Positions 30,755-49,328 of a stretch of 50,106 nucleotides of DNA are shown piece by piece. A program made the position numbers and the translations under genes. The notes beneath the pieces are model-generated. The model ran no database searches, was not told the DNA's origin, and saw only the letters and a list, made by a program, of their open reading frames with translations. This stretch comes from a virus: positions 1 through 50,106 of IMG/VR virus record IMGVR_UViG_3300027754_000138. One strand, given 5' to 3'. How positions within the stretch are numbered: position 1 is the stretch's first letter; every line of letters starts with the position of its first letter.

Positions 30755-32551
30755 ATGATAAAAAATATAATAGCGATATATCCTGGTCGGTTTCAGCCTT
30801 TTGGTCAACATCACGCTACGGCATTTAAATGGTTTCAAAAAGAGTTTGGAGCTGCCAATGCTTACATTGTAACTTCAAATGTCGTGCAACCCCCAAAGAG
30901 CCCTTTTTCTTTCAAAGATAAGCAAGATATAATAAGACAATATGGTTTCGACGATCGACTTGTACAGGTAAAGAATCCATATAAATCGGAGGAAATTTTA
31001 AAGCAACTCAATCCTAAAGACACTGCAGTTGTGTTTATGGTAGGAGCAAAAGATATGACTGAAGATCCTAGATTTAAAATAGGAAAAAAAGTAAGTGGAG
31101 GTGATTCATATTTTCAAGATTATAAAAAAAACAAATCCAATTTAAAAGGATTTGATAAACATGGTTATTTAATAGTAGCTCCACACGTTCAAATAAATAT
31201 TCCTGGATATGGAGAAATGTCAGGTACTACATTAAGAAAAGTTTTAGGAGCTAAAAAACCTAGATCACAAAAAATAGAACAATTCAAAGCTATATTTGGT
31301 TGGTATGATAAAAAAACTTCAGATATGGTATTTAATAAATTAGAATCAATGAGCGAATCAACTTTATTTTCCAAACAATGGTGGGAAACTTCTTTAGATT
31401 TAAATGAAGATAAAAAAGATCCATGTTGGACAGGATATCATCAAGTCGGAATGAAAAAGAAAGGAGCTAAAAAAGTTCCAAATTGCGTTCCAGAACAAAT
31501 TGAAACTGAATCTATTTTAAAAGAAGGAGGCGCTGGAGGGCATATGGCTCATCCATTTAATATTGATTGGGTAAACACAGGAAAAGATTTAGTAACTGTA
31601 TTTCAGCAATCTATAAATTATTTAAAAAAAGGGCCTGCATCTGTTAAAATAGACGGAGTCAATGCTTCTATTCGATTAATTACATTAGACAATAAAAAAG
31701 TTTATGTAATGGATAGAGGTTCTAATAAACCATTAGATGTTAAAGGTATTACCAAAGCAGAATTAACAGATCGATTCGGAGCTGGACATGGAATGATTAC
31801 TGTAGGTGGTAAAGTATTAGATATTTTCAATGATTCCATACCAGCTTGCACTCCTGCATTGAAAAAGTTAGGATTATGGGACAATCCAAATATTCTATTT
31901 AATATAGAGTATGTAGCAGGATCAACAAATGTTCTAGCTTATGATAAGAATTTCCTAGCAGTGCATGGCTTATTAGAAATAGAGCAAGTAACTCCAACTA
32001 AAAGAGCTACTAAAGAAAAATCATATAATAAAGCTGCAATGCAAGATTTGCTAAATAATTTAGCTCCTGTAGCAAATAAAAATGGATATGAAATTTTAGG
32101 ATCTATACCAACTACATTAGATGGAGCTCCAGATTTACAATCAGAATTAAATACAAAATATACTGTTGTTTACACAGCTGCTGATAAAGAAACTAAAACT
32201 CTTTCTCAATGGTTAGCTAAAGCAAAAGTACCAACTTCAAGTATTAAAACTATTGACGGTAAAACAATATCTGCTTTATCTAAAGAAGTTTTAATTAAAA
32301 TATCAGATAGCATACCATTAGATGAATTCATAGAAAATCCTGAAGATAATCAAGATGCCGTAGATGGATATATTATTTATTTAGCTACTATGAAATTAGG
32401 AGATGCTATATTAGATAAATTATCTTCTCCGCTAGGCCCTGTTAGTGAGCATGAAGGAATTGTAATTAGAGATAAAACAATTTATTCTAAACCTTTTAAA
32501 ATAACCGGTAAATTTATTTTAGGTGGATTGGCCAGTACTTTTAGAAAATAG
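30755..32551 (+). CDS. Adenylyltransferase (NMNAT-like) fused to an ATP-grasp-independent ligase-type nucleotidyltransferase
   Basis: The ATG at 30755 was chosen because it gives MIKNIIAIYPGRFQPFGQHH directly, the start of the fold; the frame stays open upstream but that part overlaps the previous gene. Of 598 residues, ~1-195 form a HIGH-type nucleotidyltransferase (GRFQPFGQHHATAF at 11-24, SGTTLRK at 156-162), as in NadM/NMNAT or cytidylyltransferases. Residues ~260-598 carry ligase motifs: KIDG with Lys298 as the likely adenylated residue, FNIEYVAGS (382-390), EGIVIR (567-572) and Lys-rich PFKITGKF. A Cys-Trp linker (PCWTGYHQVGMKKKG, 223-237) joins them. This combination could link NAD or nucleotide metabolism to nucleic-acid ligation or repair; the substrates are unknown. 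Confidence 0.75.
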   Translation: MIKNIIAIYPGRFQPFGQHHATAFKWFQKEFGAANAYIVTSNVVQPPKSPFSFKDKQDIIRQYGFDDRLVQVKNPYKSEEILKQLNPKDTAVVFMVGAKDMTEDPRFKIGKKVSGGDSYFQDYKKNKSNLKGFDKHGYLIVAPHVQINIPGYGEMSGTTLRKVLGAKKPRSQKIEQFKAIFGWYDKKTSDMVFNKLESMSESTLFSKQWWETSLDLNEDKKDPCWTGYHQVGMKKKGAKKVPNCVPEQIETESILKEGGAGGHMAHPFNIDWVNTGKDLVTVFQQSINYLKKGPASVKIDGVNASIRLITLDNKKVYVMDRGSNKPLDVKGITKAELTDRFGAGHGMITVGGKVLDIFNDSIPACTPALKKLGLWDNPNILFNIEYVAGSTNVLAYDKNFLAVHGLLEIEQVTPTKRATKEKSYNKAAMQDLLNNLAPVANKNGYEILGSIPTTLDGAPDLQSELNTKYTVVYTAADKETKTLSQWLAKAKVPTSSIKTIDGKTISALSKEVLIKISDSIPLDEFIENPEDNQDAVDGYIIYLATMKLGDAILDKLSSPLGPVSEHEGIVIRDKTIYSKPFKITGKFILGGLASTFRK

Positions 32552-33203: not shown

Positions 33204-33519
33204 AGACCTTCAAGCTAAAATGCTTGAAATGCAAACTGAAGAAGCTAAAATGCTTAAACTTAAAACTGCATTTGTTAACGAGTCTGATCCTGTAAAGCGT
33301 GAGAAGTTGAAAAAAGCTTTGATCGTACAACACAAAATACTTAAAGCTGTAGAAGCCGCTGCTGATAAAGCAGATGTTAATTTCCACAGTATTTTATCTT
33401 CAGAGCCTGAAGAAGATGTTCAAGATTTACTTGATCATAAACTTCAAGAGCATGTAGTTAGAATGAGAGTTCGTAAAATAGTTAAAGAATCTATCAAATC
33501 ACTTAAAAGAAAAAAATAA
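33163..33519 (+). CDS. Helical hypothetical protein
   Basis: A 118-residue, Lys/Glu-rich, almost wholly helical protein. The ATG overlaps the end of the preceding gene by 41 bases; a shorter start inside (Met19 or Met22) is possible. The C-terminus, VRKIVKESIKSLKRKK, resembles the (L/I)xE-containing leaders of neighbouring genes. Its stop overlaps the next start (TAATG). Function unknown. Confidence 0.6.
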   Translation: MNPKVSKELKKATEDLQAKMLEMQTEEAKMLKLKTAFVNESDPVKREKLKKALIVQHKILKAVEAAADKADVNFHSILSSEPEEDVQDLLDHKLQEHVVRMRVRKIVKESIKSLKRKK

Positions 33520-34178
33520 TGATTAAATTAAAAGATCTTTTAAATTTAAAAGAAGCTGTTGAAAAAGTTAAACCAGAATACACTCAAGAAGCTGTGTTTA
33601 AATTCTTTGATAAAAATAAAAAGAAATTAAAAACTCTTGCTGATAAAGATGAGTGGGATGAGTTTTATGAACTAGCTTTTATGGAATTTGCCGAAGGCGA
33701 TCAAGATATGATTGCAACGGCTATGAACAATGCAGCTTTACAAGCTGGATGGTTTGAAAACAATGTAGAAGATTATCGTCAAAGTGAAGCTGAATTAGAT
33801 ATGATGGCAAATGGCACCAAGCAACAACAAAAAGGTGTTGACACTGCTGCGTATGATAAAAAAGCAAAAACTCCTAAAAATACAAAAGAAGATTTAGTTC
33901 AACCACTTAAAGAACTAAAAAAAAAGATAGAAGAAGCTGAGTATCAAGGCAGAAAAGTAAATTTAGGAAAACCATTTTATACACCCGGCGGTCCTAGAAA
34001 GCGAGCTGTTTATGTTAAAAATGAAAAAGGAAATGTAGTTAAAGTAGGCTTTGGCGAACCAGGAATGAAAATTAAAAAAGACAATCCTGCACGAAGAAAA
34101 TCGTTTAGAGCTAGACATAACTGTGAAAACCCAGGACCTAGATGGAAAGCTAGATATTGGTCATGTAGAGCTTGGTAA
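33519..34178 (+). CDS. Putative internal head protein with repeat module and conserved C-terminal basic domain
   Basis: A 219-residue protein with the leader MIKLKDLLNLKEA. Residues ~22-79 form a ~57-residue module also present twice in the protein at 36564. The C-terminal ~75 residues (GKPFYTPGGPRKRAVYV, then KSFRARHNCENPGPRWKARY) form a very basic, Cys-containing domain that recurs, to my recollection, in many marine T4-like phages and some eukaryotic viruses, with unknown function; the basic character suggests DNA contact. The leader suggests packaging into the prohead and cleavage by gp21. The assignment is inference from leader and context. Confidence 0.65.
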   Translation: MIKLKDLLNLKEAVEKVKPEYTQEAVFKFFDKNKKKLKTLADKDEWDEFYELAFMEFAEGDQDMIATAMNNAALQAGWFENNVEDYRQSEAELDMMANGTKQQQKGVDTAAYDKKAKTPKNTKEDLVQPLKELKKKIEEAEYQGRKVNLGKPFYTPGGPRKRAVYVKNEKGNVVKVGFGEPGMKIKKDNPARRKSFRARHNCENPGPRWKARYWSCRAW

Positions 34179-34190
34179 TATTATAATAAA

Positions 34191-34214
34191 ATGATAAAAT
34201 GATAAAATGATAAA
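34191..34214 (+). repeat. Triple ATGATAAA octanucleotide at a gene start
   Basis: Three tandem copies of ATGATAAA. The first two ATGs open 3-codon frames (Met-Ile-Lys-stop), each stop overlapping the next ATG as ATGA; only the third (34207) continues into the gene. Confidence 0.9.
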
Positions 34215-36561
34215 ATTAAAAACGTTAATACTTGAAGCTGATACTGCAACTATTGCAGCAAATCTTAAAAAAGCTTATATGGCCGGACCAGCAGCAATGC
34301 GTGCATATTTAGACGGGCCAGAAGGTTCTTCTGAAGAAGCTAGAGCTTTATTACAAAAGCAAGCTGCTGATAATGACGGAGATGCTGCAGATGATAAAAT
34401 CACTATAGGTAAAGGCAGTGGCGCTGCAATGGGCTTTCAGCCAACTCAAAATCAAATTGATTTAATGCAGTCAATGTCTTATCCATTAGGTTCAACCAAA
34501 ACATTTTTACAAGCTATAGACAACCCAACAGCTGCAGGTATTGTTACTTCAGGTAAATTAATTATTGATGGTCATCATCGATGGTCTGGAATGATAGGCA
34601 TTGGCGGAGACGCTGCTCAAGTAGATAGTACGGACATTCAATGGCCAGGAAAAAATACCAATCAAATTCTTGCAGCAGCTCAATTAACAATAGCAGCTAA
34701 ATTAGGTGGTACTCAAAAAACTCCATCTCAAAGTGCAGAATTTAATACAAATATTTTAGGGGAGCCCGCAGATAAAATTACTAAAATGATAATGGCTAAT
34801 CTAGGAAAACGAACAGACAAAAACGCTCCTGGTCCATTGCTTAACAGACGAATGTGTTATGAGATTCTTAAAGATGCAAGTATACTTGCAAAAATTAATA
34901 AATGGTCTGGAGGCTCTGTGCAACCACTAAAAGAAATTAGTTTAAAACAAAAAAAAGCTGGTGAGAAAGCAGTAGATGAATTAAGATTATCAATTGCACA
35001 AAAAGTAGCAGAAAATTTAGCAGCACTACCAAAAAATGACAATGCTCCCGCTCGCGCAGATATGCCTCAATTTGATGATAAAGTCGGTGGGCCGAAACCA
35101 GATACAGTCAAAAGTCCTTTAGAAGCTGGAGAATTTAATGTAACTCCACCTTTTGCAAAAGAATCTATTCAAAATAAAAAAACAATATTAACTAAAAATA
35201 CAATGAAACAAAAATTAAAAATTTCAATTGCGGATCAAATAGCAACATTAAAAATGAAGCGTACTGCAAGAATTATTTCAGAATCGGAATATCAAAAACA
35301 AATTTATTTATTAGAAGCGGGTCCTAATACATTATCTACTTCTGAACCAATGGGTTTAGCAATTCTAGGAGCGCCGGCTGGCGGAAAAAGTTATACAATG
35401 AATAAAATAGCTGATTTAGCAGATGACCCTAGAATTTCATCAACTACAAAAAGCGGGCAAGATCTTACCGTAGATAAATTGCGAGCTGAATTTCAAAGTA
35501 AAACTGCTAAAGATCAATTAACAGGATTTGTACACGCATTTTATTTATTTAAAGAAAAAGCTAAACAAAATCCAGAACAATTTGCAAAATGGTTTGAAGA
35601 TATTAGCAAAATGTGGACCACTACATTAGCAAAATCATTACCAGAGCTTAAAATTACTGTTAGTAATGATAAATTAATGTTTGACGGCAAAGATTCTATA
35701 GATAATTTAGATATGTTAGATAAATTAGACGCTGAAGCTACGATTTCAAAATTAGATTCATATAATGATTATAAGCGTGTTGTAAGATATTTTCAATCTG
35801 TAAAACAAGCAGATGCTATTGATAAACAATTAAATATGTCTTATGACGAAGCTGGAGATGATCCAGGAAAAATTGTTGCTAATATGGATACATTACATAA
35901 AAAACAATATGTTACAGATGTTTTTTTAATTCATCCAACAAATATAGCTACTAATTTAATACAAAATTTTTATAGAGTTGTAATGGGAAATGACGGAGGT
36001 CGAGATTCTAGTGGCGCTATTATAACAGCATTTAATGATATTGAAAAATCAAAAAACATATATGCTGATAATGCTGAGGAAGTTATAGATGTAACTTCCA
36101 AGAATTTAAGTTCGGTTTCTAAAACATTAAAAAATGCAACAGTTGTTGATGATGCTGAAAATGGTGATAAACCTATAGATGTATTTGTAACTGTAGCTCC
36201 AATGGAGCCAGAAGAAGCATTTACGACATTTATAGGTAAATTAGATGATGAACAAAAAATAGTATTTAAAGCTTTATTAAAATATAGTGTTAAAGCATTG
36301 CAAGGTGTTCCAGCAAATGCTGTTAGTGTTATAAATAATTTAACTAGCAATCTTAAAGATTCTGAAGCTTTAGATATTTTAAAAAAAGCGGCTGCTGGTG
36401 AATTAAAAAACGTTTACCAACATGCACATGGAGGCGTTACAGACAAATTAGTTGCAAAAGCTACTACATTATTTAAAGAATCTAAAAATCGTATATTGAA
36501 TGATTTAGAAACAATACTTCAAGAATCTATTGCAACTTGGAAAAAGAATCGTCGTAAGTAA
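34207..36561 (+). CDS. ParB-like / P-loop kinase fusion, putative internal head protein
   Basis: A 784-residue protein with the leader MIKLKTLILEA. The N-terminal half holds a ParB/sulfiredoxin-type motif (IIDGHHRW, residues 119-126, with flanking GKL strand), and the C-terminal half a P-loop (GAPAGGKSYT, 388-397) of the zeta-toxin/polynucleotide-kinase type. Between them lies YLLEAG (366-372), matching the (L/I)xE|A form of gp21 cleavage sites, so the chain could be cut into two enzymes in the prohead. Its neighbours with the same leader support packaging with the DNA. Possible targets include host nucleotides, peptidoglycan precursors or proteins; none can be read from the sequence. It starts in the unusual octamer repeat. 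Confidence 0.65.
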   Translation: MIKLKTLILEADTATIAANLKKAYMAGPAAMRAYLDGPEGSSEEARALLQKQAADNDGDAADDKITIGKGSGAAMGFQPTQNQIDLMQSMSYPLGSTKTFLQAIDNPTAAGIVTSGKLIIDGHHRWSGMIGIGGDAAQVDSTDIQWPGKNTNQILAAAQLTIAAKLGGTQKTPSQSAEFNTNILGEPADKITKMIMANLGKRTDKNAPGPLLNRRMCYEILKDASILAKINKWSGGSVQPLKEISLKQKKAGEKAVDELRLSIAQKVAENLAALPKNDNAPARADMPQFDDKVGGPKPDTVKSPLEAGEFNVTPPFAKESIQNKKTILTKNTMKQKLKISIADQIATLKMKRTARIISESEYQKQIYLLEAGPNTLSTSEPMGLAILGAPAGGKSYTMNKIADLADDPRISSTTKSGQDLTVDKLRAEFQSKTAKDQLTGFVHAFYLFKEKAKQNPEQFAKWFEDISKMWTTTLAKSLPELKITVSNDKLMFDGKDSIDNLDMLDKLDAEATISKLDSYNDYKRVVRYFQSVKQADAIDKQLNMSYDEAGDDPGKIVANMDTLHKKQYVTDVFLIHPTNIATNLIQNFYRVVMGNDGGRDSSGAIITAFNDIEKSKNIYADNAEEVIDVTSKNLSSVSKTLKNATVVDDAENGDKPIDVFVTVAPMEPEEAFTTFIGKLDDEQKIVFKALLKYSVKALQGVPANAVSVINNLTSNLKDSEALDILKKAAAGELKNVYQHAHGGVTDKLVAKATTLFKESKNRILNDLETILQESIATWKKNRRK

Positions 36562-36563
36562 CA

Positions 36564-37097
36564 ATGATTAAGCTAGTAGATTTATTAAAAGAAATATCTG
36601 AAGATTCCTATCGCTTAAGTAATGAAATAATTGAAGTGCGTACTGCAATTCAAAAATTCTTTAATGATAATAAAATTACTTTAAAAGCGTTTGTAGATGA
36701 AAATAATTGGAATAATTACTATAATATGGCTATAAAAGATTTTCCAAATTTTAAATCTAGTGATATTGTTCAAGCAATGGGTAATCAAGCGCAAGGAGAA
36801 AATTGGTATATTAAATTACCAATTCCAGTATTAAATATGAATACAGGCCCTGCAAATAAACCATTTTTAAACATTGACATTAACAGTGATGTTTTAGAAA
36901 TTAACGCTGCTGTAGACGATTGGGTTAAAAAAAATAAAAAGCAATTAACTAAATTAGCTGACGAAAATAACTATAAAATGTTTTATCAATTAGCAAAAGA
37001 TAAATTTCCAAAAGCACAAGAAGATAAATTAGTATATGCAGTTAATATAGCCGCAATTACTTACGATATACATTATGAAATTTCAACCGAAAATTAA
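36564..37097 (+). CDS. Putative internal head protein with two repeat modules
   Basis: A 177-residue protein with leader MIKLVDLLKEISE. It consists mainly of two copies of a ~57-residue helical module (about 24-82 and 112-168), with the shared pattern NK-x2-L-x2-L-AD-x2-x-W/Y-x-x-F/Y-Y-x-LA and A-x-x-N-x-A near the end; a third copy is in the protein at 33519. The gene lies 2 bases after the ParB/kinase gene, and its TAA stop is followed directly by the next ATG. Function unknown; packaging into the head is inferred from the leader. Confidence 0.65.
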   Translation: MIKLVDLLKEISEDSYRLSNEIIEVRTAIQKFFNDNKITLKAFVDENNWNNYYNMAIKDFPNFKSSDIVQAMGNQAQGENWYIKLPIPVLNMNTGPANKPFLNIDINSDVLEINAAVDDWVKKNKKQLTKLADENNYKMFYQLAKDKFPKAQEDKLVYAVNIAAITYDIHYEISTEN

Positions 37098-37883
37098 ATG
37101 ATTAAGTTAGTAGATTTATTAAAAGAAGCGGAAGGAGAAACTCCTAAATGTCCAATAGCGACTCAAAATATCGAAGTCAATCTTGAACATCGTCAAAAAG
37201 CAATTGACGAATATGGATATGGTCCTTTAAATCCTAACAATCCAAATATTAAATTTTGGAAAGCAAAAGCGTCTGAGTGGCAATTAGATTCCATGGAAGA
37301 AGCTAAGTCATCTAGATGTAATAATTGCGCCGCTTTTAATATAACTTCTAGAATGCTTAATTGTATTGAAAAAGGAATTACATCAGGAGAAGTTGAAGTT
37401 CCAATAGCTAAAAAATCAGTTTCTACCGAAAACACATCTATTAATGAATTTCTTACTAAAGATTTAAACAATTTAAAATCAGCAATAAAAAAATTCAAAA
37501 TTAAAGTTACCGATTCGAAAATAATTAAAAATATAGAATCTATCATAGCAGCTCAGGTAATAGATCCATATGCTAATATTAAAACTGTTGTAGATCAAAT
37601 ACGTGATTATTTTAAAACTATTAATGGCCCAAAAAGCTATGATGAATATTTACAACAAACATTTGATCAAGCTCTTTATAATAGCAATTTAAAAAAATTA
37701 GCTGAAGGTGATGACGTAATTGTAGAACCAGAAACAGATGATACGGAAGGAGCTGCAAAAGACGCTTGGGATACTATTGAAGCTGGAAAATTAGGATATT
37801 GCACATTTCTTAAATTTAAATGTGCCGGATCTAGAACTTGCAATTCATGGGTAGTAGGCGGTCCTATTAAAGATAAAAAATAA
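37098..37883 (+). CDS. Cys-rich putative internal head protein, HiPIP-like pattern
   Basis: A 261-residue protein with leader MIKLVDLLKEAEG, almost identical to that of the preceding gene. Seven cysteines lie at 18, 74, 77, 89, 235, 242 and 248. The segments SRCNNCAAF (72-80) and GYCTFLKFKCAGSRTCNSWV (233-252) resemble the cluster-binding order of high-potential iron-sulfur proteins (CxxCxxF ... C ... CxxW), here split by a ~125-residue polar insert. The N-terminal segment QKAIDEYGYGPLNP is also conserved in marine phage proteins as far as I recall. Metal binding is plausible, not demonstrated. Confidence 0.65.
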   Translation: MIKLVDLLKEAEGETPKCPIATQNIEVNLEHRQKAIDEYGYGPLNPNNPNIKFWKAKASEWQLDSMEEAKSSRCNNCAAFNITSRMLNCIEKGITSGEVEVPIAKKSVSTENTSINEFLTKDLNNLKSAIKKFKIKVTDSKIIKNIESIIAAQVIDPYANIKTVVDQIRDYFKTINGPKSYDEYLQQTFDQALYNSNLKKLAEGDDVIVEPETDDTEGAAKDAWDTIEAGKLGYCTFLKFKCAGSRTCNSWVVGGPIKDKK

Positions 37884-37895
37884 AATGTAAAAGTT

Positions 37896-38141
37896 ATGCC
37901 ATTAGTAAAAACATTATTAGAAGCAAAAATATTATTAGCATTTCAAACAGCACAGACAGCAGTAGATGCTAGTTCTGCTCAAAGAAATCTAGCAAATGAT
38001 TTAGCTACTGCAATTGATGAATATATTAAAACTGCAACTATTATAACTCCTCCGGGACAAGCAATTTCAGGAGCAGGAGGCGGACCGGCGCCAGTAGTTG
38101 GATCGACAGTAACCCCTTCGAGCCCAGCTATTATTACTTAA
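37896..38141 (+). CDS. Small hypothetical protein with Gly/Pro-rich tail
   Basis: An 81-residue protein. The N-terminus MPLVKTLLEAK again has an LLE-A sequence. Residues ~15-50 are helical (LANDLATAIDEYIKTATI), and the last ~30 residues are Gly/Pro/Ala-rich. The start is in the AAAGTT-ATG context. Its stop codon lies in the left arm of the hairpin at 38139. No family is recognised; it is not an obvious small terminase. Confidence 0.6.
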   Translation: MPLVKTLLEAKILLAFQTAQTAVDASSAQRNLANDLATAIDEYIKTATIITPPGQAISGAGGGPAPVVGSTVTPSSPAIIT

Positions 38142-43846: not shown

Positions 43847-44452
43847 ATGGAAAAAAAATTAATAGTAGACTATATTACATTTAACGTTACTCCGGAACAA
43901 ATAAATGAGTCTATGGAAAAAAACAATGGACGATTAATGGTTAAAGGCGTATTACAACGTGCAGAAGCTAAAAATCAAAACGGGAGAGTATATCCTAGAA
44001 ATGTATTAATGCGTGAAGCAAAAAAATATTCTGATATTAATATAAAAGAAAGAAGAGCTTTAGGAGAATTAGATCATCCAGATTCTTCAGTAGTAAATTT
44101 AAATAACGTGTCTCATAACATTACAGAAATGCATTGGCAAGAGAATGATTTAGTTGGAACTGTAGAAGTGCTTTCAACTCCTTCAGGTAATATTTTAAAA
44201 GAGTTATTTAAGTGTGGTATTAAATTAGGAATTTCTTCTAGAGGTTTAGGATCTGTAAAAGAATTAGGAGAAGGCAAAGTAGAAGTGCAAGATGATTTTG
44301 AATTAATTGCTTTTGACTTTGTATCTAATCCATCTACTCAAGGAGCTTTTCTAGCTCCAGTTAATGAATCAATGCAACATGGTTTAATTAAACCATCTAA
44401 ATATGCAAAAGTTAATCGATTAATTACCGATATATTATCAGACATTAAATAA
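43847..44452 (+). CDS. 21: Prohead core protease, gp21-like
   Basis: A 201-residue protease of the T4 gp21/S80 type. Catalytic His77 lies in RALGELDHPDSS, and the nucleophile is Ser130 or Ser131 in LGISSRGLGS; FELIAFDFVSNPS (151-163) closes the fold, with Asp157 a possible triad member. T4 gp21 cuts scaffold, core, internal and capsid proteins after (I/L)xE. The length is close to T4 gp21 (212 residues). Its upstream core and downstream scaffold and capsid genes complete the expected assembly module. Confidence 0.9.
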   Translation: MEKKLIVDYITFNVTPEQINESMEKNNGRLMVKGVLQRAEAKNQNGRVYPRNVLMREAKKYSDINIKERRALGELDHPDSSVVNLNNVSHNITEMHWQENDLVGTVEVLSTPSGNILKELFKCGIKLGISSRGLGSVKELGEGKVEVQDDFELIAFDFVSNPSTQGAFLAPVNESMQHGLIKPSKYAKVNRLITDILSDIK

Positions 44453-47642: not shown

Positions 47643-49328
47643 ATGTCATTACATTCAATTTTAAACGAAAGCACATCTGCTGTTCGTAAACAAATGGACG
47701 AGACCAAAGGCTTAGTAGGCAAATGGTCAAAAACCGGTTTGTTAGAAGGAATCGATACCGAGTACGATAGACACGGTATGGCGATTATGCTTGAAAATCA
47801 AGCAAAACAATTAGTAACAGAAGCTAATGCAACTGGTACTGCATCAAACTCAGAACAATGGTCAGGTGTTGCTTTACCATTAGTACGTCGTGTGTTTGCA
47901 GAAATTGCAGCTAAAGACTTCGTATCTGTTCAACCAATGAATTTACCATCAGGTCTTGTATTTTACATGGACTTCAAATATGGTTCATCTCAACCTGGAT
48001 TTAGCACAACTAACACTAGTACTACACCTAGCGCTGCTGGTTATCAAAATAACTCAGTATTTGGTGTAACTTCTGATACTGCAAATGCTTCTCAAGGTCT
48101 TTATGGAGCTGGTCGTTTCGGATATTCAATGAATAAATCAGTTGCTTCTATTAGCGCTTCTGGATCTTTTACTCCAGATGCAACTAAAATTAAAATTAGC
48201 ACTGCATTAACAATGGCATCTGATGCTGACTTAGATGAATTTAACTACGATAGTAATTTTACTACTGCGTTTTCTGCTTCAATTGCTGCAGGTCACTTTA
48301 AGAAACTTACTGTATCTGTTGATTCATTAACTAGTCCAGATTTAGAAGGTGTTCGTGCTTATTCATTATCAGGTTCTAGCACAGGTCATATTAATACTGT
48401 ATTTCCACAATTTACTAAAAATGTTAATGACACAACTTTAACGTTTGTTGTATCTGGATCTATTTTATCTACCGCTGCTGCTGCTAATGTTAATGTTCAA
48501 TATCAAAAACAACCGGCTGCGAGTACTCGTGGTGATTTTGAAGATACTACAGGTAACGGAACTGACATCAATATTCCAGAAATCAATGTTGAATTGAAAT
48601 CTGAAGCTATTGTTGCTAAAACTCGTAAGTTAAAAGCAGTTTGGTCTCCAGAATTTGCTCAAGATTTAAATGCTTATCATTCAATTGATGCTGAAGCTGA
48701 ATTAACTTCTATGTTATCTGAATATATTTCTCAAGAAATTGATTTAGAAATTTTAGATATGTTGATTCAAAATGCAGTGACTACTGAAAATTGGTCAGCA
48801 GCTTTAGGATATGAGTACTCTGCCGCTTCTGATACTTTTGCTAGTATTGGTAATGCTGCTGCAGCTGCTTATACTCAACAAACTTGGTTCCAAACTTTAG
48901 GAACTAAGATTCAAAAAGTATCTAATAAAATTCACCAAAAGACAATGCGTGGTGGTGCAAACTTCTTAGTTTGTTCTCCTGACGTTGCTACTATATTAGA
49001 GTCTATCCCAGGATATGCTGCTGATACTAATGGCGACAAAATGCAGTTTGCAATGGGTGTTCAGAAAGTTGGTATGTTAAATAGCCGCTACACTGTATAC
49101 AAAAACCCATATATGACTGACAACGTAGTGTTATTAGGTTACCGTGGTGCTCAGTTCCTAGAAACAGGAGCTGTGTATGCTCCATACATTCCATTAATTA
49201 TGACTCCATTAGTTTATGATCCTACCAACTTTACTCCACGTAAAGGTGTTATGACTCGTTATGCTAAGAAAATGGTTCGTCCAGAATTTTATGGTACTGT
49301 TAAGATTCATGGTTTACACTTAGTATAA
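47643..49328 (+). CDS. 23: Major capsid protein, gp23-like
   Basis: A 561-residue precursor of the HK97-fold capsid protein. The N-terminal prodomain (1-60) ends QLVTE|ANATG, matching T4 gp23, which is cut by gp21 after Glu65. Then the conserved core begins: LPLVRRVFAEIAAKDFVSVQPMN (in part) with LVFYMDFKYGSS. Later parts MRGGANFLVCSPDVATILE, and the end APYIPLIMTPLVYDP and RYAKKMVRPEFYG are gp23 hallmarks. A Ser/Ala/Thr-rich insert lies at about 110-310. Codon use is visibly richer in C and G-ending codons than neighbours, as expected for the most expressed gene. Confidence 0.93.
   Translation: MSLHSILNESTSAVRKQMDETKGLVGKWSKTGLLEGIDTEYDRHGMAIMLENQAKQLVTEANATGTASNSEQWSGVALPLVRRVFAEIAAKDFVSVQPMNLPSGLVFYMDFKYGSSQPGFSTTNTSTTPSAAGYQNNSVFGVTSDTANASQGLYGAGRFGYSMNKSVASISASGSFTPDATKIKISTALTMASDADLDEFNYDSNFTTAFSASIAAGHFKKLTVSVDSLTSPDLEGVRAYSLSGSSTGHINTVFPQFTKNVNDTTLTFVVSGSILSTAAAANVNVQYQKQPAASTRGDFEDTTGNGTDINIPEINVELKSEAIVAKTRKLKAVWSPEFAQDLNAYHSIDAEAELTSMLSEYISQEIDLEILDMLIQNAVTTENWSAALGYEYSAASDTFASIGNAAAAAYTQQTWFQTLGTKIQKVSNKIHQKTMRGGANFLVCSPDVATILESIPGYAADTNGDKMQFAMGVQKVGMLNSRYTVYKNPYMTDNVVLLGYRGAQFLETGAVYAPYIPLIMTPLVYDPTNFTPRKGVMTRYAKKMVRPEFYGTVKIHGLHLV

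Follow-up and report, generated by a model that had tools for sequence, protein, structure and literature searches.

Introduction

Which proteins phages eject into their hosts is an old question, and a simple sequence rule makes it testable. Capsid-targeting leaders have been worked out in phages T4 and P1, and the same logic flags candidate packaged proteins in uncultured phages. In the T4 capsid-targeting sequence, an Asp at position 10 allows targeting but prevents processing (PMC9026906). In P1, DarB has an N-terminal packaging signal (PMC9024508), and DdrB is processed before packaging (PMC5512222). We here describe a phage gene in which two proteins, each with a leader of its own, appear to have been joined. 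A previous sequence-only reading of the locus knew no characterised system of this form, overlooking the polyvalent phage proteins (PMC5512222) and the capsid-targeting sequences of T4 and P1 (PMC9026906, PMC9024508).

A fused gene in a T4-type lake phage

The window, as we call the whole stretch of DNA analyzed, comprises 50,106 bases of a virus record, and its source is a lake phage of the T4 group. The gene of interest and its terminal features are as follows (the arrow marks a predicted cut throughout).

34207..36561, +, fused gene for a 784-aa protein comprising, in order, a leader, a ParB/sulfiredoxin-fold protein, a linker that contains a second leader, a zeta-type P-loop kinase and a C-tail; identical ORF in contigs L001 and L002
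34207..34236, +, leader MIKLKTLILE, residues 1-10, predicted cut E10↓A11; 10-residue form as in the neighbours and the T4 capsid-targeting sequence (PMC9026906)
36523..36525, +, Glu773 in LQES, close to the C-terminus, where processing may also occur; C-terminal L/I-x-E enrichment in the ParB family

The ORF opens with an ATG, contains no internal stop and encodes a protein with the N-terminus MIKLKTLILEA. IIDGHHRW (residues 119-126), YLLEAG (367-372, with Glu370 as the predicted P1) and GAPAGGKS (388-395) lie where the sequence-only reading had placed them. Three tandem copies of ATGATAAA were found at the gene start (window 34191-34214), and only the last ATG opens the long frame. The protein contains four sites of the form L/I-x-E-[A/G/S/N], namely E10, E359, E370 and E773, all of which are in the leader, linker or C-tail and none in the two folded domains.

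The identical ORF was detected in L001 (8081 b) and L002 (13295 b), contigs of other metagenomes that differ from the window outside the ORF by 21 and 16 substitutions, respectively. Thus, we regard the fusion as real and reject an assembly artefact as its origin. No match to the full 784-aa protein or to two stand-alone kinases was found in 50,697 phage records (low-scoring kinase matches, with E of 3 or worse, were disregarded). PADLOC gave no match to the fused protein, and no Pfam domain in it scored above the cut-off.

The first half: a ParB/sulfiredoxin-fold protein

Two features define the first half (residues 1-331).

34402..34746, +, ParB/Srx-fold core, residues 66-180, with the invariant DGHHRW (121-126); family alignment and structure model
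35053..35070, +, RxxMPQ motif of the family, residues 283-288, outside the ParB core and all but invariant among the stand-alone members; alignment

Counterparts of the first half were found in viral contigs at more than 150 loci. Most are proteins in their own right, with about 260-390 residues, and the cultured Microcystis phage Mel-JY01 carries a family member (WWT39393.1) beginning with MGILKQLLKEIED. Genes bearing DGHHRW were also seen in side-by-side pairs (L015, L017 and L025). Across 65 aligned members, Q81 and DGHHRW are invariant and P79, T80, N182, N270 and RxxMPQ nearly so; the invariance of DGHHRW in these relatives puts the motif beyond chance.

The structure model of this half was predicted with a pLDDT of 94.0 and a pTM of 0.90. 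All 15 PDB entries listed as matching it with a Z of at least 2 share the ParB/Srx fold: a free serine kinase led the matches, followed by an Agrobacterium protein, SbnI, ParB, Noc and sulfiredoxin. The best Z was only 4.0, the scores being low because about two thirds of the protein is outside the ParB core. The top match in a viral library was a protein named ParB/Sulfiredoxin (E of 5e-14). Pfam PF08857 (ParBc_2) weakly matched 26 of the 65 family members, with a best E of 4e-4 and all individual matches displayed below the cut-off; the window member was unmatched. Altogether, the assignment to the ParB/sulfiredoxin fold is a good one. Of the "ParB-like nuclease" proposed previously, the fold is supported and the activity is not. 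Free serine kinases and NTP-binding ParB proteins are the closest among solved structures, and "nuclease" is unearned, since serine kinases and CTP/ATP switches also adopt this fold (PMC12704722).

The second half: a zeta-type kinase

The features assigned to the second half are listed below.

35317..36558, +, zeta-type P-loop kinase, residues 371-784; model, structural match and Pfam
35368..35391, +, Walker A GAPAGGKS, residues 388-395; conserved in the kinase relatives
35473..35475, +, Asp423 of [VI]DxxR, invariant; proposed counterpart of zeta Asp67
35848..35850, +, Glu548 of [ST]YDExGD, invariant; proposed counterpart of zeta Glu116, in the same register in a non-significant hhalign alignment
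35974..36003, +, Arg590 and Arg599 (QNFYRV...GGRDSS), invariant; proposed counterparts of zeta Arg158 and Arg171

Residues 332-784 were modelled with a pLDDT of 83.4. Among the PDB structures compared by VIA-align, the zeta toxin 1gvn_B ranked at the top (Z of 11.3, rmsd of 4.0, 202 aligned residues), followed by 3q8x_D (11.2); the polynucleotide kinase 4gp6 (10.7) and PezT 2p5t_B (10.6) were practically level with the zeta toxin, and AvrRxo1 and tRNA-Sec kinase ranked lower. Pfam PF06414 (Zeta_toxin) matched five of the eight kinase relatives, with a best E of 1.5e-5 and scores below the curated cut-off wherever the latter was displayed (two relatives, whole-genome search). It left the window protein itself unmatched and was the sole Pfam family matched by several relatives. 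TetR_C_46 and similar weak Pfam matches were dismissed as single-member noise, and the NCBIfam and PHROGs matches, being scattered and inconsistent, were not accepted as identities. Prediction thus shows a zeta-type P-loop kinase fold in the second half, and both folds named in the sequence-only reading were recovered in the models.

The P-loop is conserved in every full-length kinase relative. The invariant K394, D423, E548, R590 and R599 fit in order Lys46, Asp67, Glu116, Arg158 and Arg171 of zeta, five residues at which alanine variants lose toxicity (PMC6356619). The register agreed in part in a profile alignment of the kinase family with two PF06414 proteins, which was non-significant. 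As for the substrate, a UDP-sugar is the default by analogy to zeta toxins, and the 5' end of a nucleic acid would be nearly as compatible with the modelled fold; a PNK-like substrate stays in consideration because the Z of 4gp6 ties with that of the zeta toxin. The patterns used detected no kinase relatives in the bacterial genome contigs searched.

Stand-alone kinases and the origin of the fusion

The stretch between the two halves was compared with the kinases encoded by separate genes.

35203..35316, +, linker, the former kinase leader, residues 333-370, with Met333 as the old start codon and candidate cuts after E359 and E370; L093 alignment and start context
35314..35316, +, Glu370, predicted P1 of the linker cut YLLE↓AG, preceding a low-confidence segment (residues 373-378); kinase model

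Stand-alone kinases of about 400-440 residues were identified in seven distinct phages outside the fusion lineage (L093, L089, L091, L092, L097/L098, L099 and L100), with partial copies in L088, L090 and L101. Both halves hence occur as separate genes, for which the sequence-only reading had proposed to search, and in L093 they are adjacent, the kinase first, among relatives of the window neighbours. The L093 kinase starts with MNKKLKLHWQLKAGVITEAQYQKKLTLLEAE, and its 30-residue leader ends in TLLEA. Window residues 333-372, MKQKLKISIADQIATLKMKRTARIISESEYQKQIYLLEAG, align with this start, Met333 falling on the L093 start and the linker ending in YLLEA. The linker site is therefore where the leader of the kinase gene ends, and a cut after the linker would restore the unfused products. 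In the kinase model, the Glu370 site closes a helix directly before the sole segment with a pLDDT below 50.

At the corresponding position in L003, the kinase is missing, and the next gene comes directly after ParB. A simple loss of the stop codon between L093-like neighbours is rejected because the order in L093 is reversed, with the kinase before ParB. Judging from the gene orders, the window fusion needs a rearrangement or the insertion of a kinase gene behind ParB.

Leaders, candidate cut sites and genome context

The window genome is of the T4 type: it encodes a portal, a terminase, a prohead protease of the gp21 type and a gp23-type major capsid protein, the last being most similar to its counterparts in Microcystis phage Mel-JY01 (59%) and Flavobacterium immuto phages (55%). 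The genes relevant to packaging are listed below.

33519..34178, +, neighbouring gene starting with the leader MIKLKDLLNLKE, its product having a basic C-terminal module behind a conserved internal [I/V/L]xE↓(A/G)EYxG site; family comparison
36564..37097, +, neighbouring gene starting with the leader MIKLVDLLKE
37098..37883, +, neighbouring gene for a cysteine-rich protein, starting with the leader MIKLVDLLKE
37896..38141, +, neighbouring gene starting with the leader MPLVKTLLE
43847..44452, +, T4-type prohead protease (gp21), Peptidase_S77 (PF03420), E of 3.5e-29; predicted cutting enzyme
47643..49328, +, gp23, the major capsid protein; its own probable cut, LVTE60↓A, is placed by the T4 gp23 precedent and gives the local cut-site pattern

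Four consecutive genes start with MIKLxxL(L/I) with Glu at position 10-12, and a fifth starts with MPLVKTLLE. The gp21-type site that the sequence-only reading saw in the linker, YLLE370↓A, has its predicted protease encoded in the same genome. Any single site of this type could be idle, since the gp21 motif is short. Separately, window 30755-32551 encodes a cytidylyltransferase-like domain and, behind it, a half that may be ligase-like (KIDGVNASIRL; RNA_ligase matched weakly, with E of 0.16), with an L/I-x-E linker, ILKEGG, between the halves, and is perhaps a third fused cargo. Shine-Dalgarno sequences were found at 3 of 42 window gene starts, as often as at internal ATGs, and A-rich stretches lie upstream instead, as expected for Bacteroidota phages.

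In a permutation test that ignores relatedness among loci, the first 25 residues encoded by the ParB genes resembled those of unrelated neighbours at the same locus more than those from other loci (24.4 versus 21.6, sd 0.44; 0 of 2000 permutations). The same test gave no signal for internal segments and a weaker one for C-termini (2 of 2000). In 67 ParB-family proteins, [LI]xE occurs at 38.4 per 1000 residues in the first 40 residues, 18 in the last 40 and 5.3 in the middle, and near the N-terminus in 65 of the 67; [LI]xD before a small residue showed no enrichment in the same proteins. Together with the leaders shared in the window and those of the stand-alone kinases (below), these make four tests on the sequences that point to the leader being a signal for both packaging and cutting. 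At the other end of the ParB-family proteins, the C-tails of two members resemble their own leaders, in L008 1643-2614 (FKLKSLLLE / IIKLKSLLGK) and L062 2240-3220 (FESTFEKHKKL / FESTFNKFKNL), hinting at a C-terminal core-binding signal.

The leaders of the stand-alone kinases are genome-specific, MKLLFENWRKYLKE in L100 and MLKFDEFEKVYEA (a T4-like pattern) in L099, each being common to unrelated neighbours. About eight neighbouring genes in L100 2281-13001 bear the leader (M)KLLFENWRKYLxE and are candidates for packaged proteins. No clear cut site was seen at the starts of the kinases of L089, L091, L092 and L097 ('ILCESLxEF' or 'ILYETLEEF'), and packaging may thus not extend to the whole kinase family.

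Other fusions with internal sites

An independent fusion of a ParB-family protein to an unassigned domain in L040 (5878-7155) has, at its junction, a near-identical second copy of its own leader (alignment score of 81 versus a shuffled mean of 22.7). In the family of the neighbour at 33519-34178, with relatives in L003, L013, L032, L036, L037, L077, L082 and L093, the N-terminal parts vary, and the [I/V/L]xE↓(A/G)EYxG junction precedes the Cys/Trp-rich basic module in all nine examples in which the junction is present. Relatives of this module were found in roseophages, pelagiphages and Flavobacterium phages. The neighbour is probably another packaged and cut protein, and the second fusion with a retained site. 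The internal leader and site copies of the two cases suggest a recurrent way of adding cargo.

Proposed mechanism and alternatives

We favour, by a modest lean, the reading that two genes for capsid-internal proteins merged and that their product is packaged as a precursor, cut into two proteins, ejected as both and active early in infection. The MIKLKTLILE leader would carry the 784-residue precursor into the prohead core. After closure of the shell, the gp21-type protease would cut after E10 and E370, and perhaps after E359 and E773, freeing within the head a protein of the predicted ParB/sulfiredoxin fold and a kinase of the predicted zeta type. Both would leave the head along with the DNA and act as infection begins. 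The kinase would possibly phosphorylate a molecule of the host, for example a UDP-sugar or some other metabolite linked to a nucleotide, and the ParB-like half would perhaps serve as a nucleotide-dependent enzyme or switch. The join keeps the packaging tag and cut site of the kinase, and therefore the long protein is probably packed and cut in two before infection. The injected two-part effector of the sequence-only reading is in line with this course of events, which we infer. We add that the linker site is the retained leader of the kinase gene and that Met333 is a credible second start. A more specific form of the proposal, to which we give slightly less than an even chance, is a true head polyprotein: one leader packages both enzymes, the head-maturation protease cuts at the retained leader of the second, and the dose is fixed at 1:1. 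In a head polyprotein, cutting may switch the kinase on.

The role of the linker could be otherwise. An internal start at Met333 would make the kinase separately with its own leader, the long form being a by-product or minor. Met333 is the alignment counterpart of the stand-alone L093 kinase start, and the score of its A-rich context is one that true starts also reach (26% of them score lower, and 8% of internal ATGs score as high). The phage shows no use of Shine-Dalgarno sequences, and in T4 an internal start within gene 21 is essential (PMC9026906). However, three contigs lack a stop between the halves and keep the frame, neither of which internal initiation alone needs, and internal ATGs with a context like that of Met333 are not rare. 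We consider this start unlikely to be the main source of the kinase; even so, packaging and leader removal would still follow and yield the same mature kinase. That the linker stays uncut, leaving a permanently fused two-domain packaged protein, has precedents in polyvalent-type phage proteins packaged whole, such as the N4 virion RNA polymerase (PMC5512222), but the linker retains the kinase's own leader and two L/I-x-E sites, one of them aligned with the leader end of the unfused kinase, and we judge this outcome decidedly improbable.

The least probable reading, to which we give little credence, denies the leaders a role in packaging and has the protein act late in the infected cell, for example against superinfection or on the cell wall at lysis. 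Zeta kinases do act intracellularly on cell-wall precursors (PMC6356619). Against late action stand the sharing of leaders across unrelated genes, the enrichment of [LI]xE without that of [LI]xD, and the position of the fused gene between other leader genes and those for the terminase, portal and gp21.

Continuing from the merged, packaged and cut precursor that we favour, the fusions seem to keep their internal cut sites, so one gene could deliver two enzymes. The locus also leads to a family of zeta-type kinases that we did not find in PHROGs.

Comparison with known systems

The ParB-like half resembles SerK/SbnI, ParB and Srx in its DGHHRW core, which reads VDGHHRW in SerK, and differs from them by a Z of only 4, long helical additions and the family motif RxxMPQ. 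The kinase has its best structural match in the zeta/PezT kinases (PDB 1gvn, 3q8x and 2p5t), with the invariant K, D, E, R and R in proposed matching places. Unlike these, it shares only about 10% identity with them, bears an additional helical stretch inserted between DxxR and the YDE strand, and has no antitoxin gene that we could see.

In the arrangement of leader and site, the closest counterparts are the T4 internal proteins (IPI-III and Alt; PMC9026906), with which the window protein shares a 10-residue N-terminal leader ending in Glu10, the L/I-x-E cut rule, a leader common to unrelated proteins and an encoded gp21-type protease. Each T4 protein has one leader and one mature domain, unrelated to those of the window protein, whereas the window chain has two domains, each with a leader site. 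In the open-licence literature searched, we found no description of two leader-bearing cargo proteins in one chain with a head-protease site between them. The polyvalent phage proteins (PMC5512222) are likewise multidomain, join conflict-type enzymes, include DdrB-like ParB and zeta-kinase-like domains and are linked to delivery by the virion, a delivery that we infer for the window protein. The proposal for these proteins is that a peptidase of their own cuts them or that they are packaged whole. In contrast, the window protein has no peptidase domain, is predicted to be cut by the head protease at retained leader sites and comprises different ParB and kinase families.
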